Of a stretch of 64,000 nt of DNA, positions 5,189 through 62,629 are shown in pieces. A program made the translations under genes and the position numbers. Source of the stretch: Henricia sp. BOLD:AAB3569 (lineage: Eukaryota > Echinodermata > Asteroidea > Spinulosida > Echinasteridae); assembly GCA_037783545.1 (NCBI GenBank), contig JBBELK010001245.1:124001-188000 (forward strand), written 5' to 3'. Every line of letters begins with the position of its first letter. Within the stretch, counting starts at the first letter, position 1. Under the pieces are notes generated by a model, which was given only the letters and a program-made list of their open reading frames with translations, was not told the DNA's origin and did not search any database.

Positions 5189-5806
5189 CCAATGTGAAAT
5201 TGTACAAAATTTTACATGTTGTTACTGCTAAGTGCTAAAGAGTAGTTTTGCGACGAAACGTATGCATGATGGTCAGTCCAGGATCCGGCATCATATCACG
5301 ACAAAAATTCCCGATGATAGCTGTATTTAGCAAACACCTGTGTCATACGTGTCCAAAGCAAGGGTGCCCAATCCTGCCTACTACGACGCCACTTTTGTAA
5401 TGAAACGGGAACACCACGACAGTGTATCGTGGAGATTCGATCCCCAAATTAATGTGGACGAGCACACCGGACAGTCAAGGCAATTATCAATCAGGAAAAC
5501 AGGCGATACAGTACAATGAAGTTAACACTAACAGCAGGAAAACATCATCGGGTATTTATTGTAGATCCTCGGTCATACAATCAAAGTGAATCATAAGTCA
5601 TTAGGACATGTATATAGACATCTCACTCAGCCAGAACTTGGAAGGATCGAGAAATTCCTCTCAAGTATGCAAGACAAAAAACCCCATTGCCTGCAGAGAA
5701 CACAAAAACAGTAGTGAATGTACAGATAACAGCACTGGTGAATATAGGAACATATGGTCAGCAATGTGTATGCATTATGTGCAGCCTACCATACACACAT
5801 ATATAG

Positions 5807-6330: not shown

Positions 6331-6956
6331 AAAAACAAAACAAATCATCACTTTGATAATACCAGTTAAGTTATAAATGTTACTCAAAATATATACATGT
6401 AAATCTGTCAACTTGTGCATACGTGGTGCATGCACCTACACGTATAACAATTACTGCACATATAATTGACCGGAATAATTTCATCAGGTAATTTCTATTG
6501 AAAATGTTATTACATGTATTCCTGTTGAAAACTTTTGCACTGCTGTACTGCAAAAGTCAATGGAAATTAAGGTATATGTTAAGGTTATCTCTCAGTTGAA
6601 CTATTTAACACAATTACATATAGTGTCTCAACACTGTTGTCTGCTTGTAAATCCATACTTCATTAATATTAAACCAGCTTTAATGATCAAACTTTTCCAA
6701 ATGATTGGCAGTTTTCCAAAAATTGGAAGAGAAAGACGATTTGGAGAAATGCGACGTCCAGGAAAAAACAGAGGTAAAACTCGTTTAAAAATTCTCTTAA
6801 AACCTGTAGGCCTACCCAAAAACAGTCAGCACTTTCCTCCGTGAAGGTGTTGGGCTTCACCTAAAAAAATTTTTTTTCAAGAAGTTGTCAATAGTTGTAA
6901 AATTTCGTACAAAAAACGAGGTGACCTGTGTGAAGTGCTTGCTAGAACTGAATACC
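6331..6956. other. No gene recognised
   Basis: AT-rich. A short run near 6700-6840 is open in both directions but resembles no known protein. Confidence 0.4.
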
Positions 6957-7589: not shown

Positions 7590-8205
7590 TTCAAGTGAAT
7601 CAACGATAGCCATCTTTACTTTCATCTCCCGTGTCTCCTAAGACAACGGTCCCCCACTTCATTATTGGCTGCTGCAGTTGCGCCCCCAGACCTTAAGGAA
7701 TGAATGCCAAAATTCATTCCTGGTGCAACGTCGGATAGCATCTTAATTATGCACTCTTTGGCCCTGGTGTAGCTAAGGGGTTTATCTTTGGCGATAAGCT
7801 TACATACACTTTTAAATCTAAAAGCGGGCTTAAACAAAAAATGATTAGATTCGGTACCGATACTCGTAGCTGACATGTATCTAAGCAACATTGTAAGTGG
7901 ACACGCTGATGTTGAGCCTTTGCTAATGACTACTTGATTGCCTGCTCTGAGCTGATCTGTTTTACTTTTACTTATGTTGACAAAGAAATAATCTGCATGA
8001 ATAGAGTAGACAAATCATTGGAGCGGATCGAGCTAAGCTCGTCGTACCAGCAAACACTGTTGTGATCATGGACAAATTTCTTATTTCGATTGGGTCTTTG
8101 CTATAGGCATACGTATCACATAGTTCAATAAGCATGTCAACCGTAACTGCATCTTTCTTTAAATTTGTGTGACCTGTTGTACGTTTTGCAGACTTTATAC
8201 TTTAT
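7590..8205 (-). pseudogene. Broken tyrosine recombinase
   Basis: The minus strand encodes the catalytic domain of a tyrosine recombinase of the type found in DIRS-like and Crypton elements and in stray eukaryotic recombinase genes. The longest open part (7891-7622) carries HSLRSGGATAAA, giving the HxxR catalytic pair at 7691-7702, then RHGR. The upstream segment reads SKSKTDQ and ISKGSTSACP, and further upstream LKKDAVTVDML, in other frames. At least two frame breaks are visible, near 8030 and at 7620, where the expected Trp after RHGR is a stop. The region that should hold the catalytic Tyr is scrambled. No reverse transcriptase was seen beside it. Confidence 0.8.
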
Positions 8206-8246
8206 ATTTCCATATCTGTAATAACAACGTCAACAAAATTGAGTCG

Positions 8247-8898
8247 TCAAAATGCAATTATAGATGCAATTAACGTGAATTTAAGTGGATTTAATTTTGA
8301 AGCTAGAATTCTGAGAAATTCGTATCCATCCATACTGCTCATTTCTGAATTACCACACTTCGCATTGCAACAGTTCACCAAAAAGATGGCAAACTTTCTG
8401 AGTGCGACTTTGTCACCAGGTGGGATTTTTGGCTGAATCCCAAAAAAATGTGCAACCATGGATGTATGTTTTTCACGAAACAAACCTGTGCCCCTCCCTT
8501 TGTCATTTACAGACATAACAATTGAACAATCTGACATTGTAAAGATGTTGGGAGTCTTCATCCAGGCAGACTTAAAGTGGGACGCGCACGTGAACTCAAT
8601 GATTAAACGCGCCAACTCTCGCTTGTTCATGCTCCGAAAACTCAAGTACCATAGTCTCACGATTTGTGATCTTGTCAGCATTTATGCATCCTTTATTCGA
8701 CCCTTGCTGGAGTACGCTTCACCTGTACTGTATGGGCAAGTAGTATAACAAAGCAACAGAGCGACGATCTGGAGAGAATACAGAAGCGAGCCTGCAGAAT
8801 CATACTTGCTTCCCAATACCAACACTACTCTGAAGCGTTGGATGTATGTAAACTGGACCAGTTGGAAAATAGGAGGGATCATCTTTTCCAGGTGTTTG
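8247..8898 (+). pseudogene. LINE reverse transcriptase, C-terminal part, segment 1
   Basis: Frames on the + strand read LNPKKC, then MLGVFIQADLKWDAHV, ANSRLFMLRKLK and IRPLLEYASP. They continue after a frame break near 8745 with LERIQKRACRIILASQY and ENRRDHLFQVFA. This series is typical of the end of non-LTR (CR1/jockey-type) reverse transcriptases. Stops and shifts at about 8435 and 8745 show it is dead. The sequence stops abruptly at 8898, and its continuation resumes at 10850 after an insertion. Confidence 0.85.
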
Positions 8899-20164: not shown

Positions 20165-20381
20165 GTGAGTAAACGATTGGTTATAGTTTTTATTCAAATA
20201 TTTGATATTTAATATATTAAATTTTTAAAAATTGTATTACAGGTACTGCATGATCAAATCATATGTTAGTAGCAGCAGCAGTGTGTTGATTCTTGCACGT
20301 TAAAATAGGAATTAAGTAGAGCAAATGTTTCTTTCGCAGATCACAACTTTAATTTTCAGTTACTAAAATCTGTTGTTTCAG

Positions 20382-21032
20382 GTCAGAGGAGCACCATCCT
20401 GCCAAAAGACTCACCTACAGTTGTTGTTAGATGAATTCAACAATCAATTAGCTAAGATGAGTGTGAGCGACCGATGGAAAATGCACCTCCACCTGCCGTA
20501 CATCGCTCTCGGTTACTTTGACCATAGAGGAGGGAATCTTGATCTTGAGGACTATGGCGTCCACCTCACCATTCCACAAGGCGCATTAACCCAAGTCCAG
20601 GATCCTCAGCTAGTATACATCTACATTGATCCCACAGCACCACAACTCGAGAGAATCGCATCACCAGAGGTGCCGCTTTCACCCATGGTTCAGTGCGGGC
20701 CTCAGGGCTTGCAGTTTACGGAGAGTGTGGTTCTGTCGTTCCCACACAGTGCTAACGGAAATTATAAACAGATCACACCACTCATGTGCCATGACGATAC
20801 CACAGAGGGTGGATGGAAGGAATTTGATGGCAAGGCGATGATGTTCATGACAGATCGGAGAGTCGTTTTCCTGGTGGACCATTTTACTATATATAAACTA
20901 AGCGGGACACCCCCTGATGAAATGACTAAATTGCTGACGATAGGTGCCTTTGGGCCTGTCCTAGACCCAACAAGTCATCGGTCCAGAATTTGTGTTCACA
21001 GTTGGAACCACGGTGCTGTAGACAGTGAAAAG
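20382..21032 (+). CDS. ZU5/death gene: ZU5 exon (UNC5/PIDD-like)
   Basis: A 217-codon exon between TGTTGTTTCAG and the donor GTAAAT, phase 0 at both ends. A short helix-like lead (about residues 1-40) precedes a ZU5 domain (about 42-190). Its hallmarks are GGNLDLEDYGVHLTIPQGAL, then SPMVQCGPQGLQF and VVLSFPH, as in UNC5 and PIDD. ZU5 folds against UPA and the death domain and can hold the death domain inactive. The tripeptide HFT at 20880-20888 sits where PIDD carries its self-cleaving HFS. The end (GAFGPVL, then RICVHSW) begins the UPA domain. No membrane segment is visible in the exons found, so receptor or cytosolic form is undecided. Confidence 0.9.
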
Positions 21033-21222
21033 GTAAATTTCACATTGCTTTGTCATTTGACATCACGTCCAGGCAAGCCAAGCTAATTTCAACGTCTAAG
21101 TGCTGGAACTTGTAGCCATGTTATGAACGTCTAGGTTTATTTCTTGTTCTTGTCATGTATTGTATTGCATGTTTAAACCAAGCCTAGGTTTGTTCTGGAT
21201 GATGATCAGTAAACGTGCACAA

Positions 21223-31245: not shown

Positions 31246-32800
31246 TTGTTTTTTTTGGCTTTTTCGTTTAGGACGAAAAAGCCTTTGTTTTCGTTTTGAT
31301 TTTTTTTTTTTTTTCCGTTTTCTTCTGATTTGTTTCCCATAGACAAAGCGCATAGGCGTTGTCGGCGCTTTTTAAGGTTGTTCCCAAACATTGATCTTAA
31401 CCAAACTTGGTCACATCAAAGACATAGTATAAGAGGTGTGCACCCAAGAATGGCTTCATTGTGACGTCATCCGTTACGTCATTATAACACTTTAAAAATG
31501 CCTAAAAAGCGGAAAATTGCCGAAATATGCACTTTTTAAAATGGTTCCCTTGCCCAAACCACATGACCCAGGGTTTTCATATTTGGCAAACATTTAGATC
31601 AGATCATGAGCTTCAATGTTCTTAGTGTAGGCATTTTCATCTGACCCTTCCTTCCTGGGTCAATCGAAGGTCAAAGTTCAGCCAATTCAAAAATCACATT
31701 TTTTGTATTTGTTTGTACTTATGAAGCAATATTAGCTATTCAACCATGCTTGATTTTCATAAAACTAGGTACAGGCATGGGCCCCATCACAAACGTCCAC
31801 CACCATGTAGAACGTCACCATGACGTCAAGGATTACGTAATTATAATAATTTTAAAATGGCACAAAAATGGATTTTTCATCATGAAAATTACCAAAATAT
31901 GCATTTCGTAAAACGCTTCCCTGTATGAACCCACATGACCCAGGGTCTTCATATTTTAAATACATATATATCAGATCATGGGCTACAATGTTCTTTGTGT
32001 AGGCATTTTCATCTGACCCTTCCTTCCTGGGTCAATCGAAGGTCAAAGTTCAGCCATTTCAAAATTCACATTTGTTGTGTTTTTGTGTACTTATGAAGCA
32101 ATTTCAGCTATTAAAGTACGCTTGATTTTCATAAAACTAGGTACAGGCATGGGTCCCATCACAAACTTCCACCACCATGTAGAACATCACCATGACGTCA
32201 ATGATTACGTAATTATAATAATTTACAAATGGCAAAAAAGTGGATTTTCGTCCAAAAAATGCATTTCGTAAAATGTTTCCCTCTATAAAACCACATGGCC
32301 CAGCGTCTTCATATTTAGCAGACATTATAGATCAGATCACGGACTAAAATTTGCTTTGTGTAGGCATTTTCATCTGACCCTTCCTTCTTGGGTCAATCGA
32401 AGGTCAAAGTTCAGCCAATTCAAAAATAACATTTGTTGTATGTTTTTGTACTTATGAAGCAATATTAGCTATTAAACAACGCTTGATCTTTATAAAACTA
32501 GGTACAGGCATGGGCCCCATCACAAACTTCCACCACCATGTAGAACATCACCATGACATAACTGATTACGTAATTATGATAATTTAAAGTGGCAAAAAAG
32601 TGGATTTTCTTCATGAAAATGACCCTAAATGCATTTCGTAAAATGTTTCCCTCTATAAAACAACATGGCCCAGGGTCTTCATATTTAGCAGACATTATAG
32701 ATCAGATCATGGACTACAATGTTCTTTGTGTAGGCATTTTCATCTGACCCTTCCGTCCTGGGTCAATTGAAGGCCAAAGTTCAGCCAAGTCGCAATTTGC
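31246..32800 (+). repeat. Type B block: poly-T head plus 370-bp tandem units, array 1
   Basis: The head (poly-T, GGCTTTTTCGTTTAGGACG hairpin, then ACAAAGCGCATAGGCGTTG) is followed by about four tandem units of 360-370 bp. Each contains TCATCTGACCCTTCC, GGGTCAATCGAAGGTCAAAG and ACTAGGTACAGGCATGGG. The units here differ by many substitutions, so they are older than those in array 2. Confidence 0.85.
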
Positions 32801-34800: not shown

Positions 34801-37075
34801 TTTGGCTTTTTCGTTTAGAACGAAAAAGCCTTTGTTTTCGTTCTGATTTTTTTTTTTTTTTTTTTTCCTCTTCTGATTTTTTTCCCATAAACAAAGCGCA
34901 TAGGCGTTGTCGGCGCTTTTTAAGGTTGTTCCCAAACATTGATCTTAACCAAACTTGGTCACATCAAAGACATAGTATAAGAGGTGTGCACCCAAGAATG
35001 GCTTCATTGTGACGTCATCCGTTACGTCATTATAACACTTTAAAAATGCCTAAAAAGCGGAAAATTGCCGAAATATGCACTTTTTAAAATGGTTCCCTTG
35101 CCCAAACCACATGACCCAGGGTTTTCATATTTGGCAAACATTTAGATCAGATCATGAGCTTCAATGTTCTTAGTGTAGGCATTTTCATCTGACCCTTCCT
35201 TCCTGGGTCAATCGAAGGTCAAAGTTCAGCCATTTCAAAAATCACATTTGTTGTGTTGTTGTGTACTTATGAAGCAATTTTAGCTATTAAAGTACGCTTG
35301 ATCTTCATAAAACTAGGTACAGGCATGGGCCATATCACAAACTTCCACCACCATGTAGAATTTTACCATGACATAACTGATTACGTAATTATAATAATGT
35401 TAAAATGGTACAAAAGTGGATTTTTTATCATGAAAATTACCAAAATATGCACTTTTTTAAATGCTTCCCTTCCCAAAACCACATGACACAGGGTCTTCAT
35501 ATTTTACAGACATATAGATCAGATCATGAGCTTCAATGTTCTTAGTGTAGGCATTTTCATCTGACCCTTCCTTCCTGGGTCAATCGAAGGTCAAATTTCA
35601 GCCATTTCAAAAATCACATTTGTTGTGTTTTTGTGTACTTATGAAGCAATTTTAGCTATTAAGGTACGCTTGATCTTCATAAAACTAGGTACAGGCATGG
35701 GCCCCATCACAAACTTCCACCATCATGTAGAATTTTACCATGACATAACTGATTACATAATTATAATAATGTTAAAATAATACAAAAATGGATTTTTATC
35801 ATGAAAATGACCAAAATATGCACTTTTAAAATGCTTCCCTTCCCAAAACCACATGACACAGGGTCTTCATATTTTACAGACATATAGATCAGATCATGAG
35901 CTTCAATGTTCTTAGTGTAGGCATTTTCATCTGACCCTTCCTTCCTGGGTCAATCGAAGGTCAAATTTCAGCCATTTCAAAAATCACATTTGTTGTGTTT
36001 TTGTGTACTTATGAAGCAATTTTAGCTATTAAGGTACGCTTGATCTTCATAAAACTAGGTACAGGCATGGGCCCCATCACAAACTTCCACCATCATGTAG
36101 AATTTTACCATGACATAACTGATTACATAATTATAATAATGTTAAAATAATACAAAAATGGATTTTTATCATGAAAATGACCAAAATATGCACTTTTAAA
36201 ATGCTTCCCTTCCCAAAACCACATGACACAGGGTCTTCATATTTTACAGACATATAGATCAGATCATGAGCTTCAATGTTCTTAGTGTAGGCATTTTCAT
36301 CTGACCCTTCCTTCCTGGGTCAATCGAAGGTCAAAGTTCAGCCATTTTAAAAACCACATTTGTTGTGTTTTTGTGTACTTATGAAGCAATTTTAGCTATT
36401 AAGGTACGCTTGATCTTCATAAAACTAGGTACAGGCATGGGCCCCATCACAAACGTCCACCACCGTGTAGAATTTTACCATGACATAACTGATTACATAA
36501 TTATAATAATGTTAAAATAATACAAAAATGGATTTTTATCATGAAAACGACCAAAATATGCACTTTTAAAATGCTTCCCTTCCCAAAACCACATGACACA
36601 GGGTCTTCATATTTTACAGACATATAGATCAGATCATGAGCTTCAATGTTCTTAGTGTAGGCATTTTCATCTGACCCTTCCTTCCTGGGTCAATCGAAGG
36701 TCAAAGTTCAGCCATTTTAAAAACCAAATTTGTTGTGTTTTTGTGTACTTATGAAGCAATTTTAGCTATTAAGGTACGCTTGATCTTCATAAAACTAGGT
36801 ACAGGCATGGGCCCCATCACAAACTTCCACCACCGTGTAGAATTTTACCATGACATAACTGATTACATAATTATAATAATTTCATGAAAATTACCAAAAT
36901 ATGCACTTTTAAAATGCTTCCCTTGCCGAAACCACGTGACCCAGGGTCGTCATATTTTTTCAGACCTATAGATCTGATCATAGACTACAATTTTGTTCGT
37001 GTAGGCATTTGTATCTGACCCTTCTGTCCTGGTTCAATTGAAGGCCAAAGTTCAGCCAAGTCAACATTTGCGTAT
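34801..37075 (+). repeat. Type B block, array 2: six 370-bp tandem units
   Basis: The head is nearly identical to 31246-31690. The phrase CTTCCTGGGT recurs at 35199, 35571, 35941, 36311 and 36681, then a changed form near 37025. This gives a period of 370-372 bp and a shortened last unit. Units 35571-35940 and 35941-36310 look identical by eye. TGACGTCA and CATGACATAACTGATTAC lie at fixed places. No coding capacity. Confidence 0.9.
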
Positions 37076-56023: not shown

Positions 56024-56480
56024 GGGAGCGCGTGTGGTCTAGTGGGTACGAAGCGGGACTCCCAATCAGAGGTAGGGAGCGCGTGTGGTCTAGTGGGTAC
56101 GAAGCGGGACTCCCAATCAGAGGTTGGGGTTCGAGCCCCACTTCGACCAACGTATCTGTGTCCCTGGGCAAGGCACTTAATCCCAGTTGCCTCGTCAACC
56201 CAAGCGATATATGGGAAGCTGTTAAGGGGAATGCCACAATCTAACTGCGGATAGGGTTGTGCGCCTGACCAGCAGCCACCTAGTTGGACTATCGAACAAA
56301 TCCTAAATGCTGGATTTTCGTCAAGGGGGATGCTTCCTCTTTAAGAGTTTATTTGCAAAAACAATCAAAATTGTGCATGTACCTGGTAATTCCCTGATGG
56401 CAGCGGTAATAATGGTAACAGCGCCTTGAGCACCCTGCTGGGTGGATATGTACGTGCGCTATACAAATATAATCATCATT
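56024..56480 (+). mobile_element. tRNA-derived SINE (family B) with doubled head and an inserted segment
   Basis: Head GGGAGCGCGTGTGGTCTAGT occurs twice in tandem, 51 bp apart, so the A box is duplicated. Only the second is followed by the B box GGTTCGAGCCC. The body holds CCCTGGGCAAGGCACTTAATC. About 90 bp (near 56285-56375) not present in the copy at 61347-61656 is inserted before GATGGCAGCGGTAATA. The 3' end is GCGCTATACAAATATAATCA. Confidence 0.85.
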
Positions 56481-57207: not shown

Positions 57208-57296
57208 TTAGCCTTTGTTTTCGTTTTGAATTTATTTATTTTTTCCGTTTATTTCTTCTTCTTCTTCTGATTTTTTTCCCATAGACAAAGCGCATG
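57208..57296 (+). repeat. Type B head, left half
   Basis: AGCCTTTGTTTTCGTTTTGA to ACAAAGCGC, then ATG, cut by the 4.77-kb element. The sequence resumes at 62067. Confidence 0.8.
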
Positions 57297-57693
57297 TACT
57301 CTAGTAGCTCATGGTGCTGTTGTATGCAATTTAATGTCCAGACCTAAACTCTTCAAGAATCCACTAAATGAAGGTCCAGGAACAATATTTGGTTGGTAAC
57401 ACATTTCCCACTGACGGCGAAATAGCTGAAATGGCCACGCCCCTTTTTTGGGCCACGCCCTTTTTGAGCGAAGTACTACCCATCCTAGGAGGTTGCCCGA
57501 CCACTCAAAATGTGCGCAATTGCCACATTATGGGAGGTCAGTAATACATTTTCATATCCAAAAGTAAATGGTTTGTAAGATAATTGCCAAAAACCGATTT
57601 CAGCATGTTACGCACTACAATTGTATAATACATGTACCACCAAGGCCACAACATAGGTATGACACTTTATCATATTACCTTTGTACCTTTTGT

Positions 57694-57855
57694 GGGAGCG
57701 CGTGTGGTCTAGTGGGTATGAAGCGGGACTCCCAATCAGCTAGAGGTGGTGGGTTCTACCGGTAGCCCCACTATGACCAACGCGCCTGTGTCCCTGGGCT
57801 AGGCACTTAATCCCAGTTGCCTCGTCAACCCAAGCGATATTTGGGAAGCTGTTAT
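57694..57855 (+). mobile_element. SINE family B, left-arm copy, shortened
   Basis: Head and CCCTGGGCTAGGCACTTAATC body are present. It breaks off at GGGAAGCTGTTA and is joined to TTTTGCATATTG, whereas the right arm continues for about 160 bp more. Confidence 0.8.
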
Positions 57856-57913
57856 TTTGCATATTGTTCCTATTTTGGAGTATTTGGATTTCTACACTTT
57901 TTGCCTTTACTAC

Positions 57914-59775
57914 TGTCGTATGATGGGAAATTTCGTACGAGTATTCATACGGGATCGTCACGACCAAATAAACGGAAGCCGACGCACGTAGTCCAGTCTT
58001 GGTTCGCTACTGTATACTGTTATTATTCAGTCTCACCACAAAATACAACACAGTCTAACAGATAAACATGATGAAAAGATCCATCGAGCGGTAAACGGAT
58101 CACAAACCAAGTGGACTTAGAAATAAAGTTGATCAAGTTCTAAAAGTAGACGAATCTATAAGCGGGTATTAACGCGGTTGTATAATGATGATAGCATAAC
58201 GGAGTACGTATACTATACGGATACGGATCCCTGCAAAACAACATAAAATACAGGAATTAAAATAAGGCTATAACACATCTACATGTATGTGCCAGTACAG
58301 TACAGTGCAACACAATATAAACTCTGTATATATGGTCACTTCAATGGGTGAACAGTGTCTCAAATATCACAACACCACAGTGAGGTCAATGGGTCAACTG
58401 CCCTTGTTTCACTCAGGTTAAGGTAATTAAATGCCCCATTCAAACAATGCACTAGTAGTAGGCTACACATATATTGTGTGTGCACTATATGCATACTAAC
58501 ACAAAACAATATGATATAATTCTTAGATGTATAAAGATATAGTTGAACACACTTTCAATGTAGGTTTGGAAGCTTTCCTCTTAAAAAAAGGAAATGCGCG
58601 ATAAAAAAATAATGCACGAAGGAAATAATCTTGGTAGTAATTAAAATGTGCTGTCACAAAACAACTCAAAAGAATGGGCTTCCACTGCTTATACACAGCA
58701 AATTCAAACAGTAGGACTGAAAACTAATCTCCTTAGATAAAACAAAATTATGCCTGTACCTTGGTACCGGAGCTGGGGTGATTTATACTACATAGTCATC
58801 ATCTCCAGGTAGCGCCAAAGCTAAACAAAAACAAGACCAAAACTAAGTGCAGTTTTGTCTTCATAATTCAATGCAGTATATAATAATCATTCCAAAGATT
58901 TGACAATGCAAGGTTCATTCATTGTATGGTTTAGATAAACTTCCACCAAGTTCGTACTTGAAAGGTAACATCGTGCAAGCAATTCACAAGAAAGTAATTC
59001 AAAGGGATAACCTTATAAAAAATCAGAAGAACAACTAAATCCTTATCAACATAAATCTAGAACAACAACTAGACTCAAACAAAATTCTCTCAAACGATTA
59101 CTTATTGTAAATATGCATATATGCAATTCACTAAAATAAAATGGAAAGAAACTTACTTACCCAAATATGGCTCAGCTTAGTGATAATTAGCAGCATAGCG
59201 GCTTGTATACATACAGAGCGGCATGCCCCGTCAGGCCAAATACAGGCCCTTATAAAGATAATTTGGCCACACCCATAGGGTTGTGGAAGGGTCATGTGAT
59301 CAATTTATTGTTCTAAGACCTGCTCTTTATTCATGAGGTGAACCCTCATTGGCTAGGAATTCAGCGATTATGTGATTTGGCCACTGGCTGATTGGTCCTA
59401 AGTTAGTAGTCATGTGACTTCGTGTTTGGTCAGCAGAATTTTGTGCTGAGTCTCAAAACAGGTCTCAGATCCTTGGACTAGCCAGATTTATTACTCGGAC
59501 CCTTAAAGTTGACATAAGCTTACTAAAAATAGTTTGTCCTAGAAGGTTATCCTTGAGTCAAAGAACATAAACTTGTTTACATGTACTGGAGAGGGTAACC
59601 ACAGGTCATTTACACATATATGTGACTGTGTTTGGTCAGCAGAATATTGTGCTGAGTCTCGGAAACAGGGTAGAATTTTAAGGTGTCCTCTGACTAAAGA
59701 ATGGAGGCACTATTTGTGTACACTGCATAAAATACAAGTGCATTTATATTGAGGATGATTTTCTCACCATCCGAC
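57914..59775. mobile_element. 1.86-kb insertion in the left arm
   Basis: The uninterrupted right arm reads CTTTACTACAGCCAC (as reverse complement). Here ACTAC stands on both sides of the inserted segment, a 4-5 bp target duplication. The insertion begins TGTCGTATGATGGGAAA and its other end, reversed, reads TGTCGGATGGTGAGAAA. It could be a solo LTR (TG...CA) or a TIR element. No frame above 60 codons lies within most of it. GTTTGGTCAGCAGAAT recurs at about 59425 and 59630. Confidence 0.75.
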
Positions 59776-59776
59776 A

Positions 59777-60213
59777 CTACAGCCACAAAACGTCACATTT
59801 TATGTTCCTTTCTCTGCAAGTGCACGTTTTGGTACTCATACATGATGTTGGGCATTTGCATGGAGGGGGCAGGTCATCGGGCCTGCACGATACTGGCATT
59901 ATCACTGGTGTTATGCCAACATCCGTTGCTTCATACCCATACTGGAGTGGATCTGGTTTGGTGACTGCATGAGTTGGGGCTTGCAACCACATCTTACACT
60001 GCAGATATGCTCACTTTACATGTATACATGTGTTCTCGTAGCGTTGATGAACAGCACAAGCTGGTTGAAGTCCAGTTCTTTCTTGGAGTTGTGGTACTGC
60101 TCCCATCGATATTTATCGAAAGTGGAACAGTCGGTCTTTTTAAATCCAGACACAGTTTTAGCATAGCTTGTTATCTGTGGTGACCGTTCTTTTACACCAA
60201 ACCCTTCCAGTAG
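59777..60213 (-). pseudogene. Left-arm partial copy of the cysteine-rich gene
   Basis: Minus-strand copy of the last 140 or so codons of the gene at 60214-61333, including the CKCPTSCMSTKTCTCRERN segment, 71 codons of which are identical to the right arm. It exists only because it lies in the inverted arm. Confidence 0.85.
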
Positions 60214-61333
60214 GGAAATTGGCTGAGAGTCTTTTCAACAGCATTCTTGCTACATGCTCCGAGTCCACAAGAATAGACACTATTGTTGATGTTTATCAAA
60301 AATCATCAATCAAGCAAATGGAACGGACACAGAGAAGTTATTCAGAACAAATCACTATCACAGTTAGGTCTGACAATCAAAAACTCCCTGTCGATCTTGA
60401 TGTGTTCTGGAGCTCAATGTTGAACAAAGTTCGGTTGCAGGAGTATGTCTTCAAGTGGATGCTGCAGAATGTCGAGTCGGACAAGGAGATCTTCTTTGGA
60501 GGAGTATATGGGGGTGAATGCAGGAACACGACAGAATCATGTTCCATATTAATGATGGTGTTGTGAAACACTGGGTTCAATCAGTCTTGGTTGACTCACC
60601 TGACACACATGACACAGAGTCTTTGTCAACCTCAACTTCTACTTCAACAAAACCTGGCAACTACAAAAGCTGTACGTGAAGCTTGGTACTAACCGGAAAA
60701 CAAAGACAATTGTACCAGTCCACCTGTTGGTTGATCAACTGGACACCGGTTTGGTGTCGTGTCTCCCAGCCATTCATGCTCTCAGCGGTTGCGACAGTAC
60801 CAGCAAGGTGGGTCCAAAGCTGTCTGGCCTGAAAGCATCCATGGATATCTCCCTACTGGAAGGGTTTGGTGTAGAAGAACTGTCACCACAGATAACGAGC
60901 AATGCTGAAAAGTTCCTTGTGTCTGGATTAAAGAAGACCGACTGTTCCACTTTTGATGAATATCGATGGGAGCAGTACCACAACTCCAAGAAAGAACTGG
61001 ACGTCAACCAGCTTGTGTGCTGTTCATCAACGCTACGAGAACACATACATGTAAAGTGAGCATATCTGCAGTGTAAGATGTGGTTGCAAGCCCCAACTCA
61101 TGCAGTCACCAAACCAGATCCACTCCAGTATGGGTATGAAGCAACGGATGTTGGCATAACACCAGTGATAATGCCAGTATCATGCAGGCCCGATGACCTG
61201 CCCCCTCCATGCAAATGCCCAACATCATGTATGAGTACCAAAACGTGCACTTGCAGAGAAAGGAACATAAAATGTGACGTTTTGTGGCTGTAGTAAAGGC
61301 AAAAAGTGTAGAAATCCAAATACTCCAAAATAG
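60214..61333 (+). pseudogene. Broken gene with HALSGCDSTSK and C-terminal cysteine motif
   Basis: A + strand reading in several frames. It holds WMLQNVESDKEIFFGG, VQSVLVDSPDTHD (offset by a shift near 60550), then LPAIHALSGCDSTSKVG, RWEQYHNSKKELDVNQL, TKPDPLQYGYEA and PPPCKCPTSC. These motifs in this order belong to a multicopy family of uncharacterised proteins of invertebrate genomes. Breaks are shifts near 60550-60670, an in-frame TGA at 61057, and a shift near 61290 before the final CGCSKGKKCRNPNTPK. The gene lies inside a transposon-like element, and its function is unknown. Confidence 0.75.
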
Positions 61334-61346
61334 GAACAATATGCAA

Positions 61347-61656
61347 AATAATAATAATAATGGTGGATTCTTATATTGCGGGGTGCTCCTGGCGCTGTTA
61401 CCAATATTACCGCTGCCATCAGGGAATCACCAGAACCATTTCGCTTCAACTAGGTGGCTGCTGGCCAGGCGCTCAATCCTAACAGCAATTAGATTGTGGC
61501 ATTCCCCTTAACAGCTTCCCAAATATCGCTTGGGTTGGCGAGGCAACTGGGATTAAGTGCCCAGGGACACAGGCGCGTTGATCATATAGTGGGGCTAGAA
61601 CCCACCACCTTTGATTGGGAGTCCCGCTTCATACCCACTAGACCACACGCGCTCCC
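61347..61656 (-). mobile_element. SINE family B, right-arm copy
   Basis: Minus-strand copy with head at 61656 and tail of ATT triplets at 61347. Complete apart from a weak B box. It supports the boundaries of the copy at 56024. Confidence 0.85.
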
Positions 61657-61805
61657 ACAAAAGGTACAAAGGTAATATGATAAAGTGTCATATATATGTT
61701 GTGGCCTTGGTGGTACATGTATTATACAATTGTAGTGCGTAACATGCTGAAATTGGCAATTATCTTACAAACCATTTACTTTTGGATATGAAAATGTATT
61801 ACTGA

Positions 61806-61831
61806 CCCCCTCCCCCCCCCCCCCCCCCCCA
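61806..61831. repeat. Poly-C tract in the right arm
   Basis: More than 20 C in a row; the corresponding left-arm site has none. Slippage expansion after the arms formed is likely. Confidence 0.8.
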
Positions 61832-62066
61832 TAATGTGGCAATTGCGCACATTTTGAGTGGTCGGGCAACCTCCTAGGATGGGTAGTACTTTGCTCAAAA
61901 AGGGCGTGGCCCAAAAAAAGGGGCGTGGCCATTTCAGCTATTTCGCCGTCAGTGGAAAATGTGTTACCAACCAAATATTGTTCCTGGACCTTCAATTACT
62001 GGATTCTTGAAGAGTTTAAGGCTGGACATTAAATTGCATACATCACCACCATGAGCTACTCTAGTA

Positions 62067-62629
62067 ATGGGCGTTGTCGGCGCTTCTTCAGGTTCTTCCC
62101 AAACATTGATCTTAACCAAACTTGGTGACATCAAAGACATAGTATAAGAGGTGTGCACCCAAGAATGGCTTCATTGTGACGTCATCAGTTACGTCATTAT
62201 AACACTTTAAAAATGCCTTAAGAGCGGAAAATTTCCGAAATATGCATTTCGTAAAACGCTTTCCTGTATGAACCCACATGACCCAGGGTCTTTATATTTT
62301 GCATAATTATATATCAGATCATGGGCTACAATGTTCTTTGTGTACGCATTTTTATCTGACCCTTCCTTCCCGGGTCAATCGAAGGTCAAAGTTCAGCCAT
62401 TTCAAAATTCACATTTGTTGTGTTTTTGTGTACTTATGAAGCAATTTTAGCTATTAAAGTACGCTTGATTTTCATAAAACTAGGTACAGGCATGGGCCCC
62501 ATCACAAACTTCCACCACCATGTAGAACATCACAATGACGTCAATGATTACGTAATTATAATTATTTAAAAATGGCAAAAAGTGGGTCAATTGAAGGCCA
62601 AAGTTCAGCCAAGTCAACATTTCCGTATA
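62067..62629 (+). repeat. Type B head, right half, plus unit
   Basis: Resumes at ATGGGCGTTGTCGGCGC and continues through TTGTGACGTCATCAG (62177) and one 370-bp unit, as at 31330-32060. Confidence 0.8.

Follow-up and report, generated by a model that had tools for sequence, protein, structure and literature searches.

The window analysed here is a whole 64,000-nucleotide stretch of Henricia sp. BOLD:AAB3569 DNA (assembly GCA_037783545.1, contig JBBELK010001245.1, positions 124,001 to 188,000 of the forward strand); positions given without a locus name count from its first letter. At 57297–62066 it carries an element that is flanked by a 3 bp target site duplication (TSD), has two long inverted arms, and contains a gene remnant and two copies of a short interspersed nuclear element (SINE) (Table 1). 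We believe it very probable that the element derives from an Academ-like cut-and-paste DNA transposon and is a non-autonomous fold-back form of it, which would have arisen by inverted copying of the transposon's right end and then have been amplified.

Table 1. Features of the fold-back element and its boundaries in the window.
Feature	Position	Strand	Remark
Left TSD copy, ATG	57294–57296		
Left tip, TACTCTAGTA	57297–57306	+	CT as bases 5–6 in 17/17 copies read at both ends
Left arm, outer part	57297–57913	+	Inverted copy of the right end
tRNA-like SINE, left arm	57692–57854	+	Lacks ∼155 of 309 bases
Later nested insertion, 1.86 kb	57914–59776		Foreign to the original element
Left arm, inner part	59777–60219	−	3′ part of the gene, antisense
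Unpaired centre (loop)	60213–60846	+	Gene sequence upstream of the arm
Gene remnant	60613–61293	+	C-terminal part of a transposon protein, XPG-like motif (GCDSTS...), Cys-rich tail
Right arm	60847–62066	+	Collinear with the right end of the gene-carrying relative L065, save for the SINE and small indels
Right-arm SINE	61353–61658	−	Same as left; full length against the 309-base query
Right tip	62057–62066	−	TACT-AG-AGTA, read inward
Right TSD copy, ATG	62067–62069		

The arms pair as 57297–57913 plus 59776–60219 against 60847–62066, in 11 ungapped pieces of 91–100% complementarity, and the element tips read TACTNNAGTAGCTCATGGTG. Two further pairs, at 76–77%, are short, unrelated matches. An earlier sequence-only reading had proposed inverted arms and a 3 bp ATG duplication, both of which are borne out by arm pairing and flanks; its arm length of about 1.05 kb needs correction, since the right arm is ∼1.2 kb and the left arm is split by the 1.86 kb insertion. 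The latter has imperfect inverted ends (TGTCG...; TGTCGTATGATGGGAAAT / TGTCGGATGGTGAGAAAAT) and a probable 4 bp TSD, CTAC, at 57910–57913 and 59777–59780, and is probably another non-autonomous DNA transposon. The gene remnant is interrupted by an in-frame TGA at 61057–61059, and its XPG-like motif was compared on relatives. With its insertion and its shortened left SINE, the window copy exceeds the cleanest one, L031 (3055 bp), both in length and in decay.

Joining the two flanks by script with a single ATG gave GCGCATGGGCGTTG, the reconstructed empty site. Some 600 bp of this joined site align across the junction to window positions 31280–31871 (88.8%) and 34827–35419 (89.4%). The proposal that the empty site can be read from other repeats therefore stands, but not to the letter: the exact 14-mer is absent from the window, which holds only three forms with one mismatch. 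The assembly has this insertion, flanks included, at four places (C1245, C490 twice and C79; 99.4–99.97% identity over 3.1 kb). From the alignments, these appear to reflect haplotypes that were retained or a segmental duplication of the locus, and not four separate transpositions. Tandem arrays of a ∼370 bp repeat related to the element flank lie at 31512–32788 and 35060–36880, with 86% and 97% matches between copies.

The assembly (740.7 Mb, 2104 contigs) was searched with an end of the element, as the sequence-only reading had suggested, and the terminal 112 bases matched at least 41 places. We fetched 14 regions picked by paired or neighbouring end matches, leaving one-ended matches aside. 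Thirteen have two opposed ends; L034, with both ends on the same strand, was dropped. Four further insertions (C155, C476, C616 and C497) were read at both ends, giving a total of 17, among which the window insertion is counted once despite its four assembly places. A perfect 3 bp TSD bounds 16 of the 17 (GTA, AGA, TTT, GTG, TTA, ATT, TAG, ATG, TCT, TTC, TAT, ATG, GCA, TAA, TGT and TAC). Because these duplications vary in sequence from copy to copy, the window element belongs to a mobile family and is not a local palindrome. Two copies fit less well and count against this: L032 has no TSD, and C497 has two candidate right ends, of which the one with a matching flank was chosen. Inverted duplication can form kilobase palindromes, and the window locus itself occupies four assembly places; nevertheless, a locally rearranged palindrome is hardly credible, as it is refuted by the TSDs of the dispersed copies, by the existence of an empty site and by the flanks. 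Among 13 insertions whose flanks were compared (12 TSD-bearing copies and L065), the sole similarity is between the two flanks of L028 itself, so that those of the 12 copies are mutually unrelated; L032, C155, C476, C616 and C497, which were left out of this comparison, lie at different places with different short flanks. Differing ends or missing TSDs in other copies had been named in advance as the mark of a local palindrome, and the outcome was the opposite. One copy, L025, has at 501–817 a third element end, which is internal (at 817); this fold-back may therefore be nested or rearranged.

One relative of the short elements carries a gene. L065 (on C118) is 6,007 bp long, with tips as in the short elements and the TSD CAA. 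Its terminal inverted repeats (TIRs) match over 236 bp at 93.6%; 10 bp of this lie in the flank, leaving an element TIR of ∼226 bp. The flanking 10 bases at L065 positions 491–500 and 6508–6517 are nearly inverted repeats around the TSD. The gene is in broken frames, with open stretches of 174, 647, 579 and 148 amino acids. In blastp against a two-sequence set, the 647- and 579-residue pieces match the intact 1633-residue frame of L067 (E = 2.3e-39 and 1.5e-51) and the 1466-residue frame of L070 (E = 1.6e-30 and 5.9e-37). A second copy of L065, on C622, has flanking reading frames nearly identical to those of L065; the region was probably duplicated together with this one insertion.

Thirteen non-autonomous copies were mapped onto L065. 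Their right side is collinear with its right end, where the gene has its 3′ part, and their left arm is an inverted copy of this same right end. The switch of strand occurs at two junctions. L023 and L024 pass from L065 position 4446 (minus) to 4292 (plus); L021, L022, L027, L029 and L033 pass from 5156 (minus) to 4471 (plus), and the junctions of L025, L026, L030 and L031 are within ∼20 bases of the latter. The maps of L028 and L032 suggest that these copies come from the two junction forms by loss of the centre. Where junctions were read, microhomology is 1 bp in L023 and L024, 3 bp in type 1 and 4 bp at the centre deletion of L032.

The SINE site corresponds to L065 position 5651–5655, and L065 itself lacks the SINE. 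In L031 the SINE boundaries (TTTTG) are identical in both arms. The start of the SINE was read in both arms of L029 and in the left arm only of L024, and the window has it in both arms, the left one having lost about half its length; in the other copies an insert at this site in both arms is visible only as a mapping gap. Because the boundaries are the same in both arms, the SINE was copied along with an arm: it either entered the right end before the copying or was copied across later. This agrees with the earlier proposal that arm symmetry was formed or kept after the SINE landed. The tRNA likeness of the SINE comes from an Rfam match on L031 below the gathering threshold (22.8 bits, E = 0.19), and ARAGORN predicted no tRNA genes in the 64 kb window. 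More pieces of this SINE lie near the element, at 56024–56435.

As the 5156/4471 junction can be derived from the 4446/4292 junction by a centre deletion, a single founding event suffices to explain both. We suggest that, while an excision gap was being repaired, a switch of strand would have copied the right end in inverted orientation, and that annealing within the old ∼226 bp TIR would have closed the copying, so that the left tip stayed in place. The product would have been an element with ∼1.9 kb arms, as in L024; deletions around the palindrome centre would then have given the commoner type with ∼1.2 kb arms. Both types could have been moved by transposase supplied in trans, and the window copy would later have lost part of one SINE and gained its insertion. 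Template switching is described as yielding inverted copies for copy number variants, in the available text of PMC10766183, and we carry this likeness over to the window family by analogy. A point against the proposed derivation is that the sole gene-carrying insertion found, L065, is broken, and for this reason mobilization in trans is only inferred.

The tips and arms bear on how the two ends have been maintained. At the left end, all 17 copies and L065 have CT as bases 5–6; at the right end, L065 and 15 of the 17 have AG, the exceptions being L022 (AC) and C155 (GG). The orientation of L032 was set from the tip itself; in C155 and C476 the longer gene match lies on the strand that the tip orientation implies. 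Hairpin-like flipping of the tips was rejected because of this constancy at both ends. The 10 bp tips have the same one-strand sequence at both ends; a reading of them as part of a longer target duplication was ruled out because a random 3-mer lies outside them on either side. The left tip may have been retained through right-end copying with annealing in the old TIR, or it may be needed for transposition.

Arm identity was measured on nine of the 13 copies. Within an element, the two arms are 97.0–98.9% identical in the seven type-1 copies and 95.7% and 95.8% identical in the two longer-arm copies; across copies, opposite arms are 96.8–97.4% and same-side arms 97.1–97.8% identical. We considered whether continual gene conversion, and not descent from one founding inverted copy, is the main reason for the likeness of the arms. 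Conversion would account for positions 21 and 24, which are identical between the arms in four of 10 type-1 copies (L021, L022, L030 and L032), and for an own-arm identity slightly above that between elements. This excess is just 0.2–1.4 points in the seven type-1 copies, however; positions 21 and 24 are side-specific in the other six, and side-specific variants have been kept at positions 5–6 and around 1141–1178. Continual conversion is thus an unlikely main cause, and the present arm differences appear, from these comparisons, to be mostly divergence from the founder with limited conversion.

The protein of L065 belongs to an abundant group. The nuclease region of L067 has at least 97 matches in the genome, where 150 of the 204 candidates were scored, and the open frames reach 1642 amino acids. 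The only Pfam domain above cut-off in these proteins is a tesmin-like CXC domain, at the C-terminus of an L067 fragment (E = 3.9e-5); it falls just under the cut-off in the full L067 protein (1.9e-4) and is sub-threshold in L068. Below cut-off, Pfam gave DUF6589 (0.014), the Cap4 nuclease (0.077), PDDEXK_13 (0.0057) and a few weaker matches, and NCBIfam gave none for the protein. Searches against sequences of solved structures returned only two matches, at E = 0.53 and 1.6, which we judged to be chance. Comparison of L070 with L071 yields no element boundary, as their whole flanks are duplicated.

Ahead of the Cys-rich tail, the motifs EEAD, SPDTDV and GCDSTS...GVGKK follow in an order that we read as that of XPG/FEN1 nucleases. 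The core with these motifs was aligned by hhalign with exons of XPG, FEN1 and EXO1 of the same genome, named by eye, and scored 28.3 (E = 3.2e-4), above all 200 column shuffles (top score 22.4). The three proteins of L065, L067 and L070 also share the DDE-like motifs DNxD, [FS]DxxxY and GxFH, and no Pfam DDE domain matched. A prokaryote scan with the FEN1 exon found no relative. Several results speak against these assignments. The hhalign probability for the core is only 39%; leaving out one sequence at a time gave scores of 19.1–34.0 and probabilities of 2.8–74.9%, two of the five scores falling under the best full-set shuffle, and an earlier set lacking L077 scored 23.3 with a probability of 9% (top of 60 shuffles, 15.4). 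These proteins have no match to Pfam XPG_I, and when the whole genome was searched with XPG_I at E ≤ 10, five places were found, none among the listed places of the family. The third acidic DDE residue of L067 and L070 (in LIES) is unaligned in L065. As regards the superfamily, profile scans of L067 and L070 found no helicase.

Known superfamilies with comparable ends were considered. The 3 bp TSD of PIF/Harbinger elements has the form TWA, and this superfamily was excluded by TSDs such as GTG, ATG, GCA, TGT and CAA. EnSpm/CACTA termini begin with CACTA or CACTG, whereas those of the window family are TACTNNAGTAG. The Academ superfamily is said to have been treated by Kapitonov & Jurka in 2010 and Kojima in 2020. 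Academ proteins have an XPG-like region and a Cys-rich tail; those described here have such a tail and a putative XPG-like region. A helicase is not known as a superfamily-wide feature. A typical Academ element carries a gene and has TIRs shorter than the kilobase arms of the window element, which hold the 3′ end of a gene and a SINE.

The sequence-only reading had suspected an undescribed transposon. This is weakened by the finding that the gene remnant comes from a large protein family with many members in this genome, and by the putative XPG-like region and 3 bp TSD, which point to Academ. A superfamily yet to be described, whose protein resembles Academ only in the XPG-like motifs and the 3 bp TSDs, would suit the near absence of Pfam and NCBIfam coverage outside the CXC domain and the lack of a helicase in the scans. 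We consider it improbable: the proteins of the L067/L070 type presumably represent a widespread invertebrate family, and the putative XPG-like region agrees with Academ. The TSD length, found in 16 of 17 copies and in L065, also agrees with the 3 bp given for Academ in the accessible part of PMC5199201. The 6007 bp of L065 are near the mean Academ length of 5565 bp in bivalve libraries, and some Academ elements are reported with helicases, in the sections available of PMC10294476 and of PMC3627910 and PMC10799480 respectively. TSD length, element length and protein layout together make Academ the best fit for the window family, an assignment that is probable, not proven, and against which it counts that no helicase was found in L067 or L070 and that the match is to described features of Academ. 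An undescribed class of transposon is probably not the case.

Long inverted arms, a short middle and no intact transposase define a fold-back element, and the window family shows all three. The arms of classic Drosophila FB elements contain internal tandem repeats. In the parts available of PMC4079207 and PMC4168063, the fold-back form is described mostly for Mutator and also for the P superfamily, to which Galileo belongs (PMC4168063); Tetris and other Mutator-type fold-backs are treated in PMC4079207, where fold-back structure is said possibly to evolve independently, by gene loss and TIR elongation. The window family resembles Galileo and Tetris, as described there, in its long arms, short middle and lost transposase, and differs in its 3 bp TSD, its protein family and the make-up of its arms. 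A Mutator-type fold-back was excluded by TSD length, as the TSDs of Tetris are 8–10 bp (PMC4079207). We found no description of fold-back Academ elements among the papers listed in literature searches, although the primary Academ papers were outside this search and absence from print is therefore not established. Fold-back elements are often known without a progenitor, Tetris being an example in the available text of PMC4079207. Here a single assembly holds a gene-carrying relative together with longer-arm, shorter-arm and centre-deleted forms. The route from an ordinary transposon to a fold-back can thus be followed at single-base level, and the family offers a testable case for the rise of long inverted repeats.

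The route seems to recur in distant families of the same superfamily. L068 (on C1015) is a 5.4 kb palindrome with ∼2.6 kb arms at 98% identity and the 3′ ends of the gene outward; its protein is 29% identical to that of the window family. A one-base shift of its ends gives a possible 3 bp TSD, TTA, a single case picked by eye. L069, which shares the flanks of L068, is no independent case. In L077 (on C245) the arms are at least 1.6 kb long at 98.5%, and here too the 3′ ends of the gene point outward; the outer ends of L077 were only partly fetched. Apart from the window family, the matches listed include eight opposite-strand pairs that lie close together, and all eight have this order; at most six are independent (C1015 and C329 share flanks, and C122 and C363 have identical scores), and those on C1015, C329 and C245 were fetched. 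With outward gene 3′ ends in three distant families (window, L068/C1015 and L077/C245), inverted duplication of the right end might be a built-in habit of the superfamily, in which its own XPG/FEN1-like nuclease, acting on hairpin or flap intermediates, would repeatedly make self-complementary elements; we regard this as a doubtful, speculative proposal.

Two further features lie elsewhere in the window. On the minus strand at 7622–8681, reading frames resemble a tyrosine recombinase by eye (HSLRSGGATAAANN), with no Pfam match at E ≤ 0.001. On the plus strand at 20367–21086, a frame encodes a ZU5 domain (E = 2.9e-18) and is likely an exon of a host gene.

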